The translations under genes and the position numbers were made by a program. Of a stretch of DNA of 64,000 nucleotides, positions 27,599 to 34,239 are shown in pieces (position 1 is the stretch's first letter; each line of letters starts with the position of its first letter). The notes under the pieces were generated by a model. It was not told the origin of the DNA and did not search any database. It saw only the letters and a program-made list of their open reading frames with translations. The DNA is from Erythrobacter ramosus (GTDB taxonomy: Bacteria > Pseudomonadota > Alphaproteobacteria > Sphingomonadales > Sphingomonadaceae): positions 682,001 to 746,000 of the forward strand of contig NZ_WTYB01000002.1 in NCBI RefSeq assembly GCF_009828055.1. Reading direction: 5' to 3'.

Positions 27599-29011
27599 TC
27601 AGCCGCGCGGCAGTTCGAGCCGGAACAATGCTCCTCCACCCTGCGCACTCTCCACTGTCAGACTGCCATCCATCGCCTCGGCCAGACGGCGCGAGATATA
27701 GAGGCCGAGACCTGAACCCCTATCTCGTCCGCCGTCATTGTCGCGGCCCAGACGCTCGCCCTTGTCGAAGATCCGCTCGGCCTGTTCGGGTGTGACGCCG
27801 GAGCCTTCATCGGCGACGGTGACAGCCACCCTGCCCTCACTCGCTCCGTGCGCCGTGATCGTGACTGTGCTCGCCGCGGGCGAATAGGCGATCGCATTGC
27901 CGATCAGGTTGATGAGGATCTGGAGCACCCGCCGGAACTCGGCCGTGGCAACCGCCTCGCCATGCACGCCCTCGGTCACCAGCACGGTGTCGCGGTTGCG
28001 CGCACGCACACCGAGAATGCCTGCGGCCCGCACGGCTGCATCAGCCAGATCGACCGGTTCTTTCGCCGTGGCAAAGCCGGGGGTCTCGACCACTTCAAGA
28101 TCGGCGAGATCATCAAGCATCGCGGCAAGATGCTGCCCGGCGCTGGCGATGGTGCCGGCATATTCGCTGTATTCGTCGCGCAACGGCCCGGCGAGCCGAG
28201 CGCGGATCGTCTCGGCATTGGCGATGATGCGTGCGACCGGCTGGCGCAACACCGGGGTGAGCGCAGTGCCGACAAGCCGTGTGGGCGAGGTTTCGGGTGC
28301 GCCGTCCTCGGCCGGATCGGGCTCGATCGGCGCGGTGAGCGGCTCCTCGGCGATCAGCAGCAATTCGAAGCCCGCCGGGTTCTGCACATCCGTCCCCAGC
28401 GGGATCAATCGCACGCGCCAATGGCGCTGCGACCCGGCAAAGCGGCAAGTCGCCCCGTCGAGCAGCCGCCAGTGCAAGGGCTGGTGGTGGGTGATGCCGG
28501 TAAGTTCGACCAACTCGCTCCACACCGTGGCGGGCGCGGCCAGCGCAGCGAGCTGGAGCGCGGCGGCATCGGCTGCGCGGGCGCTCAACACCTGCAAGCG
28601 CTGGCGGGCATCGAGCCGGGCGCTAACTTCGGCGGTGGCGCGGTCGATCGCGTCGATTTTCTCTGCGAAGTCGCGGGCGCTGGGGGGCGTGAGCGGGCTG
28701 CGCTGCCAGTTCTCGACCAGCACTTCGCACCCGCCGCCATCATCCTCGGCCAGGGGATGGATGCGGGCGAAGCCGGAGATCTCGGCATCCCCGTCAAAGG
28801 CGCTGAAGGCGCGCGCGATCCTGAGTCCCATGCGCCGCGCTTGCTGCACCAGCGCCAAAAGCTCGGGGATCGCCAGCGTGCCGGGCAAATCGCCGCCGCA
28901 CCGCTCCTGCAATTCGGCGAGCGGCGCATCGGCGCTCAGCAGCCGGTCACGCGCATCGGTGAGGCCATAGGCGCCCAGAAGGCCGTCCGTGCGGTCCATC
29001 GTGTTCATCAC
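27599..29011 (-). CDS. Histidine-kinase-like protein lacking the phospho-accepting His
   Basis: Soluble 470-aa protein. Residues 1-240 are Ala/Leu-rich with no membrane segment and may hold a sensory fold (HHQPLHWRLLDG region). A DHp-like helical pair follows at about 245-305, then a full HATPase_c domain: N box NLIGNAIAYSP (368-378), G1 DEGSG (401-405) and G2 GSGLGLYI (432-439). Where kinases read S-H-E-L-R-T-P-L, this one reads LTPVLRQPV with Pro253 at the His position. ATP binding should be possible but autophosphorylation at the usual site is not. Its ATG overlaps the stop of the DUF2336 gene. Annotators would call it a sensor kinase; pseudokinase is the more careful name. Confidence 0.85.
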   Translation of the reverse strand: MMNTMDRTDGLLGAYGLTDARDRLLSADAPLAELQERCGGDLPGTLAIPELLALVQQARRMGLRIARAFSAFDGDAEISGFARIHPLAEDDGGGCEVLVENWQRSPLTPPSARDFAEKIDAIDRATAEVSARLDARQRLQVLSARAADAAALQLAALAAPATVWSELVELTGITHHQPLHWRLLDGATCRFAGSQRHWRVRLIPLGTDVQNPAGFELLLIAEEPLTAPIEPDPAEDGAPETSPTRLVGTALTPVLRQPVARIIANAETIRARLAGPLRDEYSEYAGTIASAGQHLAAMLDDLADLEVVETPGFATAKEPVDLADAAVRAAGILGVRARNRDTVLVTEGVHGEAVATAEFRRVLQILINLIGNAIAYSPAASTVTITAHGASEGRVAVTVADEGSGVTPEQAERIFDKGERLGRDNDGGRDRGSGLGLYISRRLAEAMDGSLTVESAQGGGALFRLELPRG

Positions 29012-29943
29012 AGCCCGCCGCCGCCGAGCAGCGCGGCGGCCCGTTCGGCCGAAACCCCGCCAAAGCCGCGCGGCAACCGGCCCGAAGGCTCGACCAGCAA
29101 CAGCTGACGCTCAATCGCGGTGGGGGACAGTTCGCCCGCGCGCAGCATAAGGGCAAGCCGCAAGCCCTGCCCTTCGTGGCAGGCGAGCACCGCGTCTCCG
29201 CGCAGTTGGCGTGTGGTGATCGACAGCGCACTCGCAAACAGCGCCAGCCCGGCATGATCCAGCGCCAGCGCCGCCATCGCCCCGCGCCGCATCGCTGCGA
29301 CCAACCGCGCGAGCAGGCCGAGCCGCCCGGTCGCCTCGTCATAACCTGCCTGCAATCGCCCTAGCGCCGCGGCGTCCTGCGCTTCGGTCTGGGCCCTGCC
29401 GATCAAGCGGTGGAACAGTTCGGCGGGCAATTCGCCCAACGGCAGCTCCATGCGGCGTTGGCCTTGGACGAACCGCGATTGCGCGGCGAGCGTGCTCATG
29501 GCGAGGCTGGCGATGGCCGGGTCTTCGGAGGCGATCAACTCCTGCAAGAGCGGGCTCAGCACCGGATCGATCGCGTGGCGTTGGTGCAAGCGTTCGGCAA
29601 TCAGCCCCTCGGCCGCGAGCGCATGGCAGAAAGCGAGCAGGACCTCGTCCGCCATCAAGACCGCGGCAAGCCGGTCGAGCGCGGCGGGATCGGCGGAGGC
29701 GTGCGCGCGGGTGACAGGATCGCGGCCCGCAAGCGCGGCCAGCAATTGCGCGGCGAGATCAAAGATCATGCCCCGGACGCGGGCGAGGATCGCCTCGCTT
29801 ACCAGCGCTTCAGCATCGCTGCTCAGAAGATGGCGCAGAACGGGGACGACCGCCGCCAGCGCGCGGCTTTCCCGCGCGAATTCATCCGTGAGGATCGCCT
29901 CGACATCAGCGTCGGCGGCCAGGTCCATCGTCTTTTCGCCCAT
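29008..29943 (-). CDS. DUF2336-like protein
   Basis: All-helical cytoplasmic protein of about 311 aa, resembling the alphaproteobacterial DUF2336 family (unknown function, often beside signalling genes). Recognisable parts are ESRALAAVVPVLRHLLSSD, VSEAILARVRGMIFDLAAQL and a central LARASADPAALDR-like repeat pattern; no catalytic motif is seen. The start could be 29943 (MGEKTMDLA) or 29928 (MDLAADAD). Its stop overlaps the kinase-like start, so the two are probably made in fixed ratio. A CtrA-like box lies in the 42-nt gap upstream. Confidence 0.7.
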   Translation of the reverse strand: MGEKTMDLAADADVEAILTDEFARESRALAAVVPVLRHLLSSDAEALVSEAILARVRGMIFDLAAQLLAALAGRDPVTRAHASADPAALDRLAAVLMADEVLLAFCHALAAEGLIAERLHQRHAIDPVLSPLLQELIASEDPAIASLAMSTLAAQSRFVQGQRRMELPLGELPAELFHRLIGRAQTEAQDAAALGRLQAGYDEATGRLGLLARLVAAMRRGAMAALALDHAGLALFASALSITTRQLRGDAVLACHEGQGLRLALMLRAGELSPTAIERQLLLVEPSGRLPRGFGGVSAERAAALLGGGGL

Positions 29944-29985: not shown

Positions 29986-31182
29986 TCAAACCCGGTCAGG
30001 ACGCAGCAGCAAAGCGAAGAGTAGCCCCAAGGCGAGACAGGCCAATCCTTCAGGCAAGACGCCAAAGGCGGCGGCAAGCGCCAGCGCGAGCAACAAGCTC
30101 GCACGGTCAGAGGCGGGGGCAGCCAACATTGCGCCGGGCTGCCCCGCGGTCAGGCGGGCGAGACCGACCACCACTGGCCCCAGCACCGCGAGCGGTTGCC
30201 ATTCGGGCCAGGGCGACAGCGCAAACCATGTGGTGAGCGCCGCCAGCCCGTCTACCGCCGCCGCCAGCACGGCTGGCCCGCGTCCTGGATCGCCCGCCCG
30301 CCTGAGCCTTGCGGATAATGCGGTATAGTCGATCGCAACGCGCGCTGCGAAGGCACCCAGCCCCGCGAGCACCAGCCCCACAGCAGGCGGGCCGAATGCT
30401 GCAAACATCACACCGATCAGCAGCAGCGCCAAAGCCAACCCGCCCGCTGCAAGCCCGCCCTGTTCAAGTCCCCTCGGAGCCAGCGCGCGCACGAGTATCG
30501 CCGCCAGCGTCGCAAGCGGCGCGCGCCAGTTGGTCGGCGCGGCGGCATCGGCGATGAGCGCCTGCTCGGCCTCGGCAACGGCAGCTGTGCCATCGGCCAG
30601 CAACCAGCGTTCCGGCACCAGCTCGCGCGCGGCGAGATCGCGGCACGGGGTTCCGGCCTGCAAGGCAAGGCGCAGCAGTAAAGAGACTGCGTCGGCATCG
30701 TCAGGAAATTCGGCCAGCTGCTGCACCGGCGCGCCGCGCATCACCAGCACGCCCGCCCAATGGCGCGCGGCATCAATCCGCTCAAAATCATCGGGGTAAG
30801 CGGCAGCGAGCGCGTGGTCAGCCGGGATGGCCGCGATCACCCTTTGCAGCGCAACGTCTCCCCCGAGCACCGCCCGCACGACCGCTGGATCGGGCACCAG
30901 CCCATCGCGCAGAATGATGAGGTCATCCTCTGACCGCACCAACGCAGGCAGTGCGGCAAAGTTCGGCAGCGCATGAAACGCCGCCCCGCCCGCTTCGATC
31001 CTGTGCTGCAATTGCAGCACTTCGTCAGAGGTGGTCTCTGTCAGGCACAGCACCCGCTCAGCGCCCAAGGATTGCAGCAGATCCGCCTGCCAGGCGAGAA
31101 CGCTGCGCCCGGCGAGCGGAAGTTCGGCGCGAAGTCCACCATCCGCGCTGCGCCGGATTGCGGCAATCAGGCCGATGCGCAT
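29986..31182 (-). CDS. Membrane protein with possible degenerate nucleotidyltransferase-like N-domain
   Basis: 398-aa protein in two parts. Residues 1-210 start MRIGLIAAIRRSADGGLRAE and contain PLAGRSVLAWQADLLQSLGAERVLCL and ILRDGLVPDPAVV, a layout like MobA/GlmU-type nucleotidyltransferases, but the glycine-rich GxGTRM nucleotide motif is missing. Residues about 225-398 are five or so membrane helices (GGLALALLLIGVMFAAFG; LLALALAAAFGVLPEG). ATG 31182 has AGGGGG upstream. Function unknown; the fold comparison is tentative. It lies between the Hpt-like and the DUF2336 genes on the same strand. Confidence 0.75.
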   Translation of the reverse strand: MRIGLIAAIRRSADGGLRAELPLAGRSVLAWQADLLQSLGAERVLCLTETTSDEVLQLQHRIEAGGAAFHALPNFAALPALVRSEDDLIILRDGLVPDPAVVRAVLGGDVALQRVIAAIPADHALAAAYPDDFERIDAARHWAGVLVMRGAPVQQLAEFPDDADAVSLLLRLALQAGTPCRDLAARELVPERWLLADGTAAVAEAEQALIADAAAPTNWRAPLATLAAILVRALAPRGLEQGGLAAGGLALALLLIGVMFAAFGPPAVGLVLAGLGAFAARVAIDYTALSARLRRAGDPGRGPAVLAAAVDGLAALTTWFALSPWPEWQPLAVLGPVVVGLARLTAGQPGAMLAAPASDRASLLLALALAAAFGVLPEGLACLALGLLFALLLRPDRV

Positions 31183-31295: not shown

Positions 31296-31619
31296 TCAGC
31301 GCCGGATATCGCGATTTTGCGCGCGGTTGAAGCGGGCAAGCACAGCCTCGACCTCGCGGATCGCCATCGGCTCGCCCGGCGCAGCATGGAGCGCGATTTC
31401 AGCGGCCTGGAGCAGGTCTTCAGCGTGGAAGCTGGCAGCAAGGCCCTTCAGCCGCATCGCTGCGACATGCCAATTGCCATCACAGCGCGCGCGCTTGAGC
31501 AGATCTAGCTGCTTGGCAGCGCTTTCAAGGAAGGCAGCGCGCAGCTCACGCAGCAAGGCGGCATCGTCGCCGGCCGCTGCCGCAAGAGTCGCATCAAGAG
31601 CACCGTGATTGAAAGCCAT
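31296..31619 (-). CDS. Hpt-like protein lacking the phospho-accepting His
   Basis: Helical 107-aa protein with the framework of a histidine phosphotransfer domain: LRELRAAFLESAAKQLDLLKRA, then the core helix HVAAMRLKGLAASFHAEDLL. In Hpt domains the core reads A-H-x-L-K-G; here Met55 replaces the His. His51 lies one turn earlier and is the only His near. It may bind response regulators without transferring phosphate. Start ATG 31619 (MAFNHGALD); a TTG at 31637 in frame would add six residues. First gene of the minus-strand cluster. Confidence 0.78.
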   Translation of the reverse strand: MAFNHGALDATLAAAAGDDAALLRELRAAFLESAAKQLDLLKRARCDGNWHVAAMRLKGLAASFHAEDLLQAAEIALHAAPGEPMAIREVEAVLARFNRAQNRDIRR

Positions 31620-31677: not shown

Positions 31678-34239
31678 ATGACGTGGCTTATGGCAGGACG
31701 GCACCAGATGCGCGCGTTGGGGCGCAAGAGCGGCGATGACGGCGCAGGCGACATGGCTTTTGCAGAGGCTGATGGGCAGGATGGGGCATCCGAAGGGATG
31801 CTCGATCTGTCCGAAACCTGGGCAGAGGATGATGAGCTAGCGCCCTCCCCCACGCGATCCGGCTGGCTCGCGCCAAGCCTTGCGGTGCTGGTGATTGCCG
31901 GATGGAGCGGGTTTTTCGTCTGGGCTCACCTTGCTGACATTCGCGCCGGAGCCGTGCCTGCGCAATGGGCTGGCTGGGTGGTCGAATGGGCCATGCCGGT
32001 GGCCTTGGTGGGTATCGTGTGGCTGCTGGCGATGCGGTCCTCACACGCTGAGGGCAGGCGGTTTGCCGCGACCGCTGCGATGATGAATCGCGAAGGCGCC
32101 GCTCTCGAAGCGCGGCTTAAGGTGGTGAACCGCGAATTGAGCTTGGCGCGCGAATTTCTCGCCGCCGAAGCCCGCGATCTTGAGGCGCTTGGCCGGATCG
32201 CAGCGGAGCGCCTGTCCACTCATGCCGGCGAATTGCAGGCGCTGATCACCACCAATGGCGCGCAGGTCGAAGCGATTGGCACCACCAGCGAAACCGCGCT
32301 GGGCAATATGAACCGGCTGCGCGACGATCTGCCGGTGATCGCCAATGCCGCGCGCGATGTCGCCAACCAGATCGGCGGAGCGGGCCGCGTTGCAGAAGAT
32401 CAGTTGGCGCGGCTTTCGAGTGGGTTTGACCGGCTCGGCACCGCCGGCGCCGAGAGTGAGGCGCAGGTTACGCGCCTAACTGTGCAGGTGGGCGATACAC
32501 TCGGCCAGTATGAGGCGCAGCTGACCCGGATCGAAGCTATCGTCACGCAGCGGTTTGCGACCTTGCAGACGGAGGCCGAGGCCTTTCGCACCCGCATCGC
32601 CGCGCTCGAAGAAGAAGCGCTGGCTTCGCATGGCGAGCGGGCGCAAGCCGTCGCCAGCCAAAGCGAAGCGCTCGCCAATCAGTTGCGCGAAGCGGGAGAG
32701 AACGCGCGCACCAGCTATGCCGCCGCGATTGCCGCGCTGCACGAGACGCTGGTGGAGAAGCTCAATCTGGTCGACCAGCTCGACCGCAATTCTGCAACCG
32801 TTGCAAACGAGCGGATCGCCAAGCTCCGCGAAGAAGCGGTGCAATTTGAAGAGCAGCTGACGACACGCAACCGCCAGTTCGACGAGCTGATCGAACAGCG
32901 GCAGGCGGCCTTTGAGACCCATGAAGCGCAGGCGAGCGAGGTGTTGGCCCAGCGGCTGGCGGCGCTTGACGATGCGCTCGCCCAGCGGCGCGAGGCGCAG
33001 GTTGCCGAAATCGAAAAGCTGGTCGTGCAGGGTGAAGCGATGACCGAGCGGGTCGCGGAACTCGGGCGGGTCTTGGCCGAGATTGACCAGACCAGTGCGG
33101 CTGCGCGAGAGAGCCTTGGCGCGGGCCTTGGTACGCTGTCCCAGCAGCTTGGCGAGAAGCGCGCTGTGATCGCCGCAACCGAAGCACAATTGCTCCAACT
33201 GACCGACAGCAGCGTGCGTTTGCTGGAGATTTTGCAGTCCGGCGCGCGCACGTGCCACGAAGACCTCAGCACCGCGATCAGCGGAGCTAACATCGCTCTG
33301 GAAGGGGTCGAAGCGCGGGCCGACAAGGTCGAGGCGCTGATGCTGCGCAGCACGCAGGCGGGCAGCGAGTTGTCGGACTATCTCCTTCGCACCCGCGCGG
33401 AGATCGACACGGCTGAAATTGCGATTGCCGGGTTCAAGTCCCATCTCGCCGAAGAAACCGAAGATGCCCTCGCCCGACTGCAAGGCCTGCGCGGCGGCTT
33501 TGCGCGGCTTGCCGAAGAAAGCGGCACGCTGGCGGTCGAGACGCAGGACAGCCTGCGCGCATCGCTTGCGGCGCTAGAAACCGCGATCAACCGGGCCTTC
33601 GCCACGCTTGATGAAGGCGCGCGCGAGAAGACGCTGGCGCTGGCGAACAACCTCGGCGGCGAAGCGGTTGAGGTGCTCGAACGCGCGCTTCGCAACGAGG
33701 CTGCTGCGACTCTCGGCAAGCTTGAGCAGTCAGCCGCTCACGCCTCGGGCGTCGGCCGCGAGGCGGCGATCCAACTGCGCGATCAGTTGGTGAAGGTGAA
33801 CGAACTCACCGGCAATCTCGAACAACGAGTTATGCACGCGCGCGAACTCGCCGAAGAGCAGGTCAACAACGACTTCGCCCGTCGCATGGCGCTGATCACC
33901 GACAGCCTGAATTCCGCCGCGATCGACATCACTGGAGCCTTGGCCGACGAAGTGGCCGACACGGCGTGGGAAGCCTATCTCAAGGGCGACCGCGGCATCT
34001 TCACCCGCCGCGCGGTGCGGCTGATCGACAATGGCACCGCCAAGGATATCGCCGCGCTGTACAGCGCGGACGAAGCGTTCAAGGCCAATGTCAGCCGCTA
34101 CATCCACGACTTTGAAGCCATGCTGCGCCAGACGCTCTCGACCCGCGATGGCCATGTCCTGAGCGTGACGATGCTGGGTTCGGACATGGGCAAGCTCTAC
34201 GTGGCGCTGGCTCAGGCGATCCAGCGTTTCCGGACTTAA
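31678..34239 (+). CDS. Large membrane-anchored coiled-coil protein, TipN-like architecture
   Basis: 853-aa protein. An acidic cytoplasmic start (about 1-60) is followed by two membrane helices (LAPSLAVLVIAGWSGFFVWA at 64-83; WAMPVALVGIVWLLAM at 104-119) and then about 620 residues rich in Ala, Glu, Gln, Arg and Leu with heptad character, i.e. a very long coiled coil. The last 110 residues (from ALADEVADTAWEAYLKGDRG to LYVALAQAIQRFR) look like a separate conserved globular domain. Caulobacter TipN, a pole marker, has the same plan (two N-terminal membrane segments plus long coiled coil, about 880 aa), but I cannot show homology. Divergent from the Hpt-like gene. The stop shares the palindrome TTAA with the opposite DUF1467 gene. 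Confidence 0.8.
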   Translation: MTWLMAGRHQMRALGRKSGDDGAGDMAFAEADGQDGASEGMLDLSETWAEDDELAPSPTRSGWLAPSLAVLVIAGWSGFFVWAHLADIRAGAVPAQWAGWVVEWAMPVALVGIVWLLAMRSSHAEGRRFAATAAMMNREGAALEARLKVVNRELSLAREFLAAEARDLEALGRIAAERLSTHAGELQALITTNGAQVEAIGTTSETALGNMNRLRDDLPVIANAARDVANQIGGAGRVAEDQLARLSSGFDRLGTAGAESEAQVTRLTVQVGDTLGQYEAQLTRIEAIVTQRFATLQTEAEAFRTRIAALEEEALASHGERAQAVASQSEALANQLREAGENARTSYAAAIAALHETLVEKLNLVDQLDRNSATVANERIAKLREEAVQFEEQLTTRNRQFDELIEQRQAAFETHEAQASEVLAQRLAALDDALAQRREAQVAEIEKLVVQGEAMTERVAELGRVLAEIDQTSAAARESLGAGLGTLSQQLGEKRAVIAATEAQLLQLTDSSVRLLEILQSGARTCHEDLSTAISGANIALEGVEARADKVEALMLRSTQAGSELSDYLLRTRAEIDTAEIAIAGFKSHLAEETEDALARLQGLRGGFARLAEESGTLAVETQDSLRASLAALETAINRAFATLDEGAREKTLALANNLGGEAVEVLERALRNEAAATLGKLEQSAAHASGVGREAAIQLRDQLVKVNELTGNLEQRVMHARELAEEQVNNDFARRMALITDSLNSAAIDITGALADEVADTAWEAYLKGDRGIFTRRAVRLIDNGTAKDIAALYSADEAFKANVSRYIHDFEAMLRQTLSTRDGHVLSVTMLGSDMGKLYVALAQAIQRFRT

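Follow-up and report, generated by a model that had tools for sequence, protein, structure and literature searches.

CheA has an Hpt domain, P1, that receives its phosphate from a kinase domain with a His-less dimerization domain. Hpts are also found as stand-alone bacterial proteins (PF01627), such as HptB of Pseudomonas aeruginosa (7c1i) and ShpA of Caulobacter (2ooc). In plants, AHP6 has been described as an Hpt in which the acceptor His is replaced and which inhibits the phosphorelay (PMC3572949). DivL of Alphaproteobacteria is presented elsewhere as a kinase-like protein without an acceptor His that regulates another kinase, and Osp and FixT as receiver-like kinase inhibitors, in which a two-component fold binds without phosphorylation (PMC9430884). 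Our literature searches on pseudo-Hpts, pseudo-kinases, the Hpts of Sphingomonadales and DUF2336, with partial journal coverage that leaves absence unproven, returned plant pseudo-Hpts and no bacterial pseudo-Hpt family. In the literature searched, pseudo-Hpts are known in plants and the DivL pseudo-kinase in Alphaproteobacteria, and a conserved clade of bacterial pseudo-Hpts near a His-less kinase was not found.

The window analysed here, a stretch of 64,000 nucleotides of Erythrobacter ramosus, contains on its minus strand the gene of an Hpt-fold protein of 107 aa, P0001 (31296..31619; ORF from the ATG at 31619 to the stop at 31296). Its core helix, residues 51-63 (HVAAMRLKGLAAS; 31431..31469, minus strand), has lost the phospho-accepting His of the A-H-x-L-K-G motif and carries Met55 at the phosphotransfer position. 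This confirms what the earlier note had claimed, the codon (31457-31455) falling inside the segment which that note had singled out. P0001 has the same fold and size as the stand-alone bacterial Hpts, and resembles them in the Trp five residues ahead of the acceptor and in the A-x-x-L-K-G frame, but P0001 and 100 of 102 family rows are without the acceptor His, and the family has a fixed F64 where His-bearing rows have Ile or Val. AHP6 and P0001 are both of Hpt fold with a replaced His, which in P0001 is conserved as such; however, AHP6 belongs to another kingdom and presumably arose independently, and the P0001 gene lies near that of a His-less kinase-like protein. Osp and FixT, in turn, have a receiver fold and not that of an Hpt.

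Taken from one sequence, the assignment of P0001 as an Hpt is marginal, because the Pfam scan gave Hpt at E 0.056 and 14.1 bits, under the cut-off of 24.6. The Pfam Hpt domain was present at E<=0.1 in 35 of 59 P0001 orthologues (best 4.9e-6), and the profile of these 59 sequences was aligned by hhalign with 17 Hpts that bear His (one of this family and 16 of other families in the order) at a probability of 97.9 and E 3.3e-13, with Met55 on the phospho-His. Run over 385 genomes of the class, this family profile gave matches in 31, and 26 of those lie outside the family. Of 44 aligned rows, 43 have His in the column of Met55; the remaining one (L237) is a segment within a 314-aa ORF whose locus has none of the genes that neighbour P0001. 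The AlphaFold2 model of P0001 has five helices (mean pLDDT 91.3, pTM 0.82). With this model, the best 13 rows of Foldseek were all Hpt or phosphotransferase structures or complexes, at E of at least 0.19, and the best 16 rows of VIA-align comprised 15 entries titled as Hpts or complexes of them (Z 12.3 to 10.2) and one titled only 'Crystal structure'; helical bundles score easily, and for them a Z below about 13 is not decisive alone. The family profile, when run against the sequences of solved structures, gave no Hpt match and eight chance matches at E 0.04 or worse. With the family profile, the P0001 family is firmly placed by sequence comparison as an Hpt homologue, with a predicted helical-bundle fold homologous to PF01627. 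The family profile match to Hpts and the model thus bear out the earlier claim that the fold is probably intact.

A search of 249 genomes of the family for P0001 gave a match at E 1e-3 in 166 and none in 83. Reading covered 118 of these 166 in total (G040, locus L225, included), and the site counts refer to one set of 102 rows, the window plus 101 other family genomes. Residue 55 is Met in 33 of these rows, Leu in 26, Gln and Trp in 14 each, Ala in four, Ser, Gly, His and Glu in two each, and Arg, Tyr and Val in one each. It is therefore not His in 100 of 102, and 87 rows have M, L, W or Q. By entropy, in rising order, this column ranks 81st of 100. Around it, each of the columns 53-64 except site 55 has one residue in at least 76 of 102 rows; W50 and F64 are invariant (102/102), R56 is kept in 101 and K58 in 76, and site 59 (H+4) is only Gly, Ser or Ala (G89 S9 A4). 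Since Glu, the only acidic residue at site 55, occurs there in just two of the 102 rows, this site is not a phosphomimic. A second sample, of 80 titled loci with the window added, has M72 L7 Q2 and no His; both sets may share genomes, so their counts are not to be added. The alignment of orthologues that had been proposed as a check accordingly shows the acceptor missing across the main clade, in 100 of the 102 rows and in every one of the 80 titled rows, and the change is no local mutation. The P0001 gene is under strong selection, with dN/dS values of 0.050-0.127 against ten relatives.

Two rows of the derived clade, L071 (AAHRLKG) and L078 (AAHRLQG), have His back at site 55 beside a kinase-like neighbour that is still without His; site 55 can therefore still become His. 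At another locus (L236, genome G137), homologues of P0003, P0004 and P0005 are present and the match to the Hpt family is a stretch of 34 residues only, so that the Hpt there looks truncated or lost, with the rest of the cluster staying. This fragment and the 83 of 249 family genomes without a match indicate that an Hpt of the P0001 type can be lost. In addition, 15 weak in-family matches that were read later, together with G056, divided into eight non-His and eight His rows. The eight non-His rows belong to the same clade as the main family rows, and in three of them R56 is Lys; the eight His rows come from four genomes of genus g85, three of genus g6, and G056.

The earlier note had taken orthologues with a normal His as evidence against its reading. 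Such orthologues exist outside the main clade, but inside it His is not the rule, and the His-bearing orthologues show an ancestral state and not an activity of the Met protein. In other families of the order, 28 genomes gave a match, and all 17 loci that were read (L221-L224, L226-L235, L238-L240) have His. In the same family, nine genomes outside the main clade have a His-bearing Hpt. A P0005 homologue adjoins the His-bearing Hpt in 16 of the 17 other-family loci (the contig of the remaining one is short), and in 16 of 17 the downstream genes include one for a receiver-like protein and one for a second Hpt. Within the family, G040 and G056 have a His-bearing Hpt with this same arrangement, G007 has the His in a broken frame, and in G052 the receiver and the second Hpt are present and the first Hpt was not detected. 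The second Hpt was thus found in four of 119 family genomes (G040, G056, G007 and G052) and was not found in the genome of the window.

CheY-type receivers have their phospho-Asp at a position where the receiver-like protein of this ancestral-type module has Asn (SNW[DEQ]M) in 20 of 20 rows (L221-L231, L233-L235, L238-L240, L249-L251); therefore, it may be a pseudo-receiver too.

In a first tree of 121 rows, which left out L236, L237 and L251, the 102 family rows were separated (support 100/96) from the 19 that bear His, and a minimum of three changes between His and non-His was needed. A second tree of 76 rows, which included g6 and g85 and 42 of the 102 family rows and left out L236, L237, L251 and L288-L292, again required three changes and held the derived clade together (100/98). 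The weak matches L289-L292 were kept out of the orthologue counts. As both trees are built on about 100 columns, with long branches and a weakly supported root, the deeper branching is unsure; the simplest reading of these sequences would be one early loss of His followed by two returns, in L071 and L078.

The kinase-like neighbour P0003 (27599..29008, minus strand) has HisKA and HATPase_c domains, the latter at a Pfam E of 1.2e-25. It has Pro253 at the phospho-His position and keeps the N, G1 and G2 motifs; residue 253 is counted from the GTG at 29011, and the ATG at 29008 overlaps the P0002 stop. Among 63 rows the acceptor position is P44 A7 R5 Q2 K2 N1 V1 T1, with no His, and in the titled set it is P70 A1 (71 rows). 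On the other hand, N368, N372, D401, G403, G434 and G436 are each present in 63 of 63 rows and G405 in 62, and each of these columns is kept in 70 of 71 rows of the titled set, the remaining row being a gap. The earlier note had called P0003 a dead kinase. This holds for the acceptor His, lost in 63 of 63 rows, but the protein is not wholly dead, as its ATP-binding motifs are kept; what was lost is therefore the acceptor and not the ATP site. In further loci of the derived clade, the acceptor site of the kinase is Arg (G114, L301), Glu (G084, L302) or Gln (G174, L306). As a control, the genome of the window gave 14 HisKA matches, of which one is P0003 and one (L260) has Tyr. The other 12 all have His, nine of them through the H-box motif and three as AASHDLIQP (L266), GVAHDFNN (L268) and GIAHDFNN (L271).

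Elsewhere in the same genome, L260 (G000:C3:404699-404899, in a 787-aa frame) is DivL-like, with Tyr for the H-box His (SYEFRTPL). DivL and P0003 are both kinase-like proteins without an acceptor His, but P0003 has Pro where the DivL-like L260 has Tyr, and with this separate Tyr-bearing kinase in the genome it appears unlikely that P0003 is DivL.

The order of the two losses can be approached through two genomes of genus g6, G099 (L298) and G210 (L299), in which a His-bearing Hpt is followed by a DUF2336 protein and then by a kinase-like protein. These kinase-like proteins match HATPase_c (E 3.3e-24 and 5.5e-24) and gave no HisKA match; when aligned to P0003, they have Arg and Gly, respectively, at the acceptor site and all seven ATP-motif residues. 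The L298 kinase has a His five positions beyond the aligned acceptor site (LERPFQSHI). A His-bearing Hpt and a His-less kinase thus occur in one cluster, and the loss in the kinase is seen without that in the Hpt. The earlier idea of a shared design therefore stands in so far as each loss is conserved, but G099 and G210 mean that the two need not have happened together. As in CheA, these genomes combine a His-bearing Hpt with a His-less ATP-binding kinase; however, these are separate proteins with a DUF2336 gene between them, and the Hpt of the window is also without His. In G005, also of g6, the Hpt bears His and no kinase gene was found within 6 kb. In genus g85, the gene after the Hpt has a CDP-alcohol phosphatidyltransferase domain (L296 by domain scan, L293 similar by reading), and a P0003-like gene was not found within 6 kb of the Hpt.

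The remaining genes of the cluster differ in their constancy. P0005 (853 aa; 31678..34239, plus strand) adjoins the Hpt gene divergently and, as read from its sequence, has a coiled coil and hydrophobic segments near the N-terminus. It is adjacent to P0001 in 102 of 102 loci and lies beside the Hpt gene in 79 of 80 titled loci. P0004, P0002 and P0003 lie downstream of P0001 on the same strand; P0004 is adjacent in 86 of 102 loci, and P0003 was found at 62 of 72 loci with 5-kb flanks and not found at the other ten. P0004 (398 aa; 29986..31182, minus strand, from the ATG at 31182) had no match in the Pfam scan. In its sequence, the N-terminal part is weakly similar to a nucleotidyltransferase-like region and the C-terminal half is hydrophobic, and it may be a degenerate relative of the gene, nucleotidyltransferase-like plus CDP-alcohol transferase, that follows the His-bearing Hpt in g85 (L293-L296). 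P0004-related matches were obtained by phmmer on L282 and L283 (E 6e-6 and 2.7e-6), and a direct BLASTP gave E 0.30. Five loci (L032, L057, L155, L188 and L192) have no P0004 match and carry P0002 directly after the Hpt gene, so that P0004 looks dispensable to the cluster.

P0002 (306 aa; 29008..29928, minus strand) is modelled as all-helical (pLDDT 93.3). It gave no match to Pfam and none below E 0.19 in a fold search against the PDB, which is no evidence for a new fold. It appears DUF2336-like through relatives in the same slot: DUF2336 (PF10098) was detected in one of 54 members of the P0002 family, at 0.023, and the occupants of the slot over the DUF2336 cut-off are L301 (E 1.4e-21), L302 (1.4e-23) and L299. 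P0002 is probably a divergent DUF2336 protein, because L301 and L302, of the derived clade, carry a clear DUF2336 in the slot and the P0002 profile finds nine of 25 slot occupants (best 2.2e-20); a direct hhalign comparison to the L298 DUF2336 protein fails.

Homology to Hpts, loss of the acceptor, conservation, synteny and the kept ATP motifs of the neighbour are all observed. We consider it somewhat probable (roughly 0.55) that P0001 is a pseudo-Hpt, incompetent in phosphotransfer, kept as a binding module or adaptor with P0003 as its partner. Binding is the likeliest function because acceptors are missing in both proteins, no universal His exists and the old active site is strongly conserved. 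The ancestor would have been a canonical stand-alone Hpt, divergent beside the same coiled-coil gene (P0005). Early in the main clade this Hpt would have lost its phospho-accepting His, after which selection would have retained it as a binding module, with the old acceptor site turned into a mostly hydrophobic or Gln patch framed by W50, F64 and R56. P0001 would be a regulatory or adaptor subunit bound to the His-less, ATP-binding P0003 and perhaps to the DUF2336-like P0002; the assembly would be linked to the membrane and include P0005, and no phosphoryl transfer would pass through P0001 or P0003. The contact is suggested by adjacency and by the former docking face, adjacency being no proof of contact; a lack of phosphotransfer in vitro and a controlling role of the assembly would likewise be expected. 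The conserved ATP site of P0003 suggests that the nucleotide state still matters. We counted against this binding reading the return of His in L071 and L078, the ten of 72 loci where P0003 was not found, the fact that the Hpt can be lost, the His-bearing Hpt of G005 without a nearby kinase, and Lys at R56 in three of the eight further rows.

A tentative wider reading is a stepwise abandonment of phosphorylation, from the module with receiver and second Hpt, through a "CheA in pieces" as in the side branch g6, where the His-less kinase could phosphorylate the His-bearing Hpt in trans, to a pair, in the main clade, of ATP-driven pseudo-kinase and pseudo-Hpt that would signal only by conformation and contact.

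Among the alternatives to binding of P0003, P0001 might act by analogy with AHP6, docking to the receivers or hybrid kinases used by real Hpts and blocking the phosphorelay by competition. The plant precedent (PMC3572949), the largely kept L-K-G (H+2 to H+4) with its small residue at site 59 in 102 of 102 rows, and a genome whose single Pfam Hpt match lies in an 818-aa frame and which has 14 HisKA matches including P0003 would agree with it. However, the receiver and the second Hpt found next to the His-bearing gene in other genomes are missing here. Furthermore, a study on Ypd1 describes the H+4 glycine as mattering for the geometry of transfer and not for affinity, Ser and Ala being tolerated, Val, Leu and Glu nearly abolishing transfer and Gln impairing it (PMC6341664), so that a small residue kept at H+4 does not on its own indicate receiver docking. 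We regard this inhibitor role as doubtful. It is unlikely, in turn, that P0001 is only a scaffold serving the coiled-coil P0005 with no two-component link left: P0005 is indeed the most constant neighbour (102 of 102 loci and 16 of 17 His-bearing other-family loci) while P0003 and P0004 vary, but at 62 of the 72 loci with long flanks P0001 is accompanied by P0003 with its conserved ATP site, and in G099 and G210 even the His-bearing Hpt has a kinase-like gene after it.

That phosphotransfer persists through another residue is very improbable. His51 lies, by residue numbering, about one helical turn ahead of Met55 and had been put forward as a substitute acceptor, and His65 occurs in 60 of 102 rows. 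However, residue 51 is His in only four of 102 rows, residue 65 stands just past the helix 47-63 in the AlphaFold2 model, and the 102-row alignment contains no universal His column, residue 65 being the best, so that His51 or any other His as acceptor was rejected on these column counts. Neutral decay, with the gene on its way out as the 83 of 249 family genomes without a match at E 1e-3 and the fragment in G137 might suggest, is hardly credible and, as recent decay, was rejected for the lineage of the window, where dN/dS of 0.05-0.13, invariant residues and constant synteny contradict it, in line with the earlier statement that this is not chance decay.

It should be noted that surveys can discard Hpt and kinase sequences without an acceptor; in one large census, such sequences were dropped while hypothetical and partial proteins were filtered (PMC4558063). 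The pseudo-Hpt clade, spread across many genera, and the His-bearing orthologues in the same neighbourhood form a before-and-after series that can be used to explore which roles remain for a phosphorelay protein after the loss of phosphorylation.
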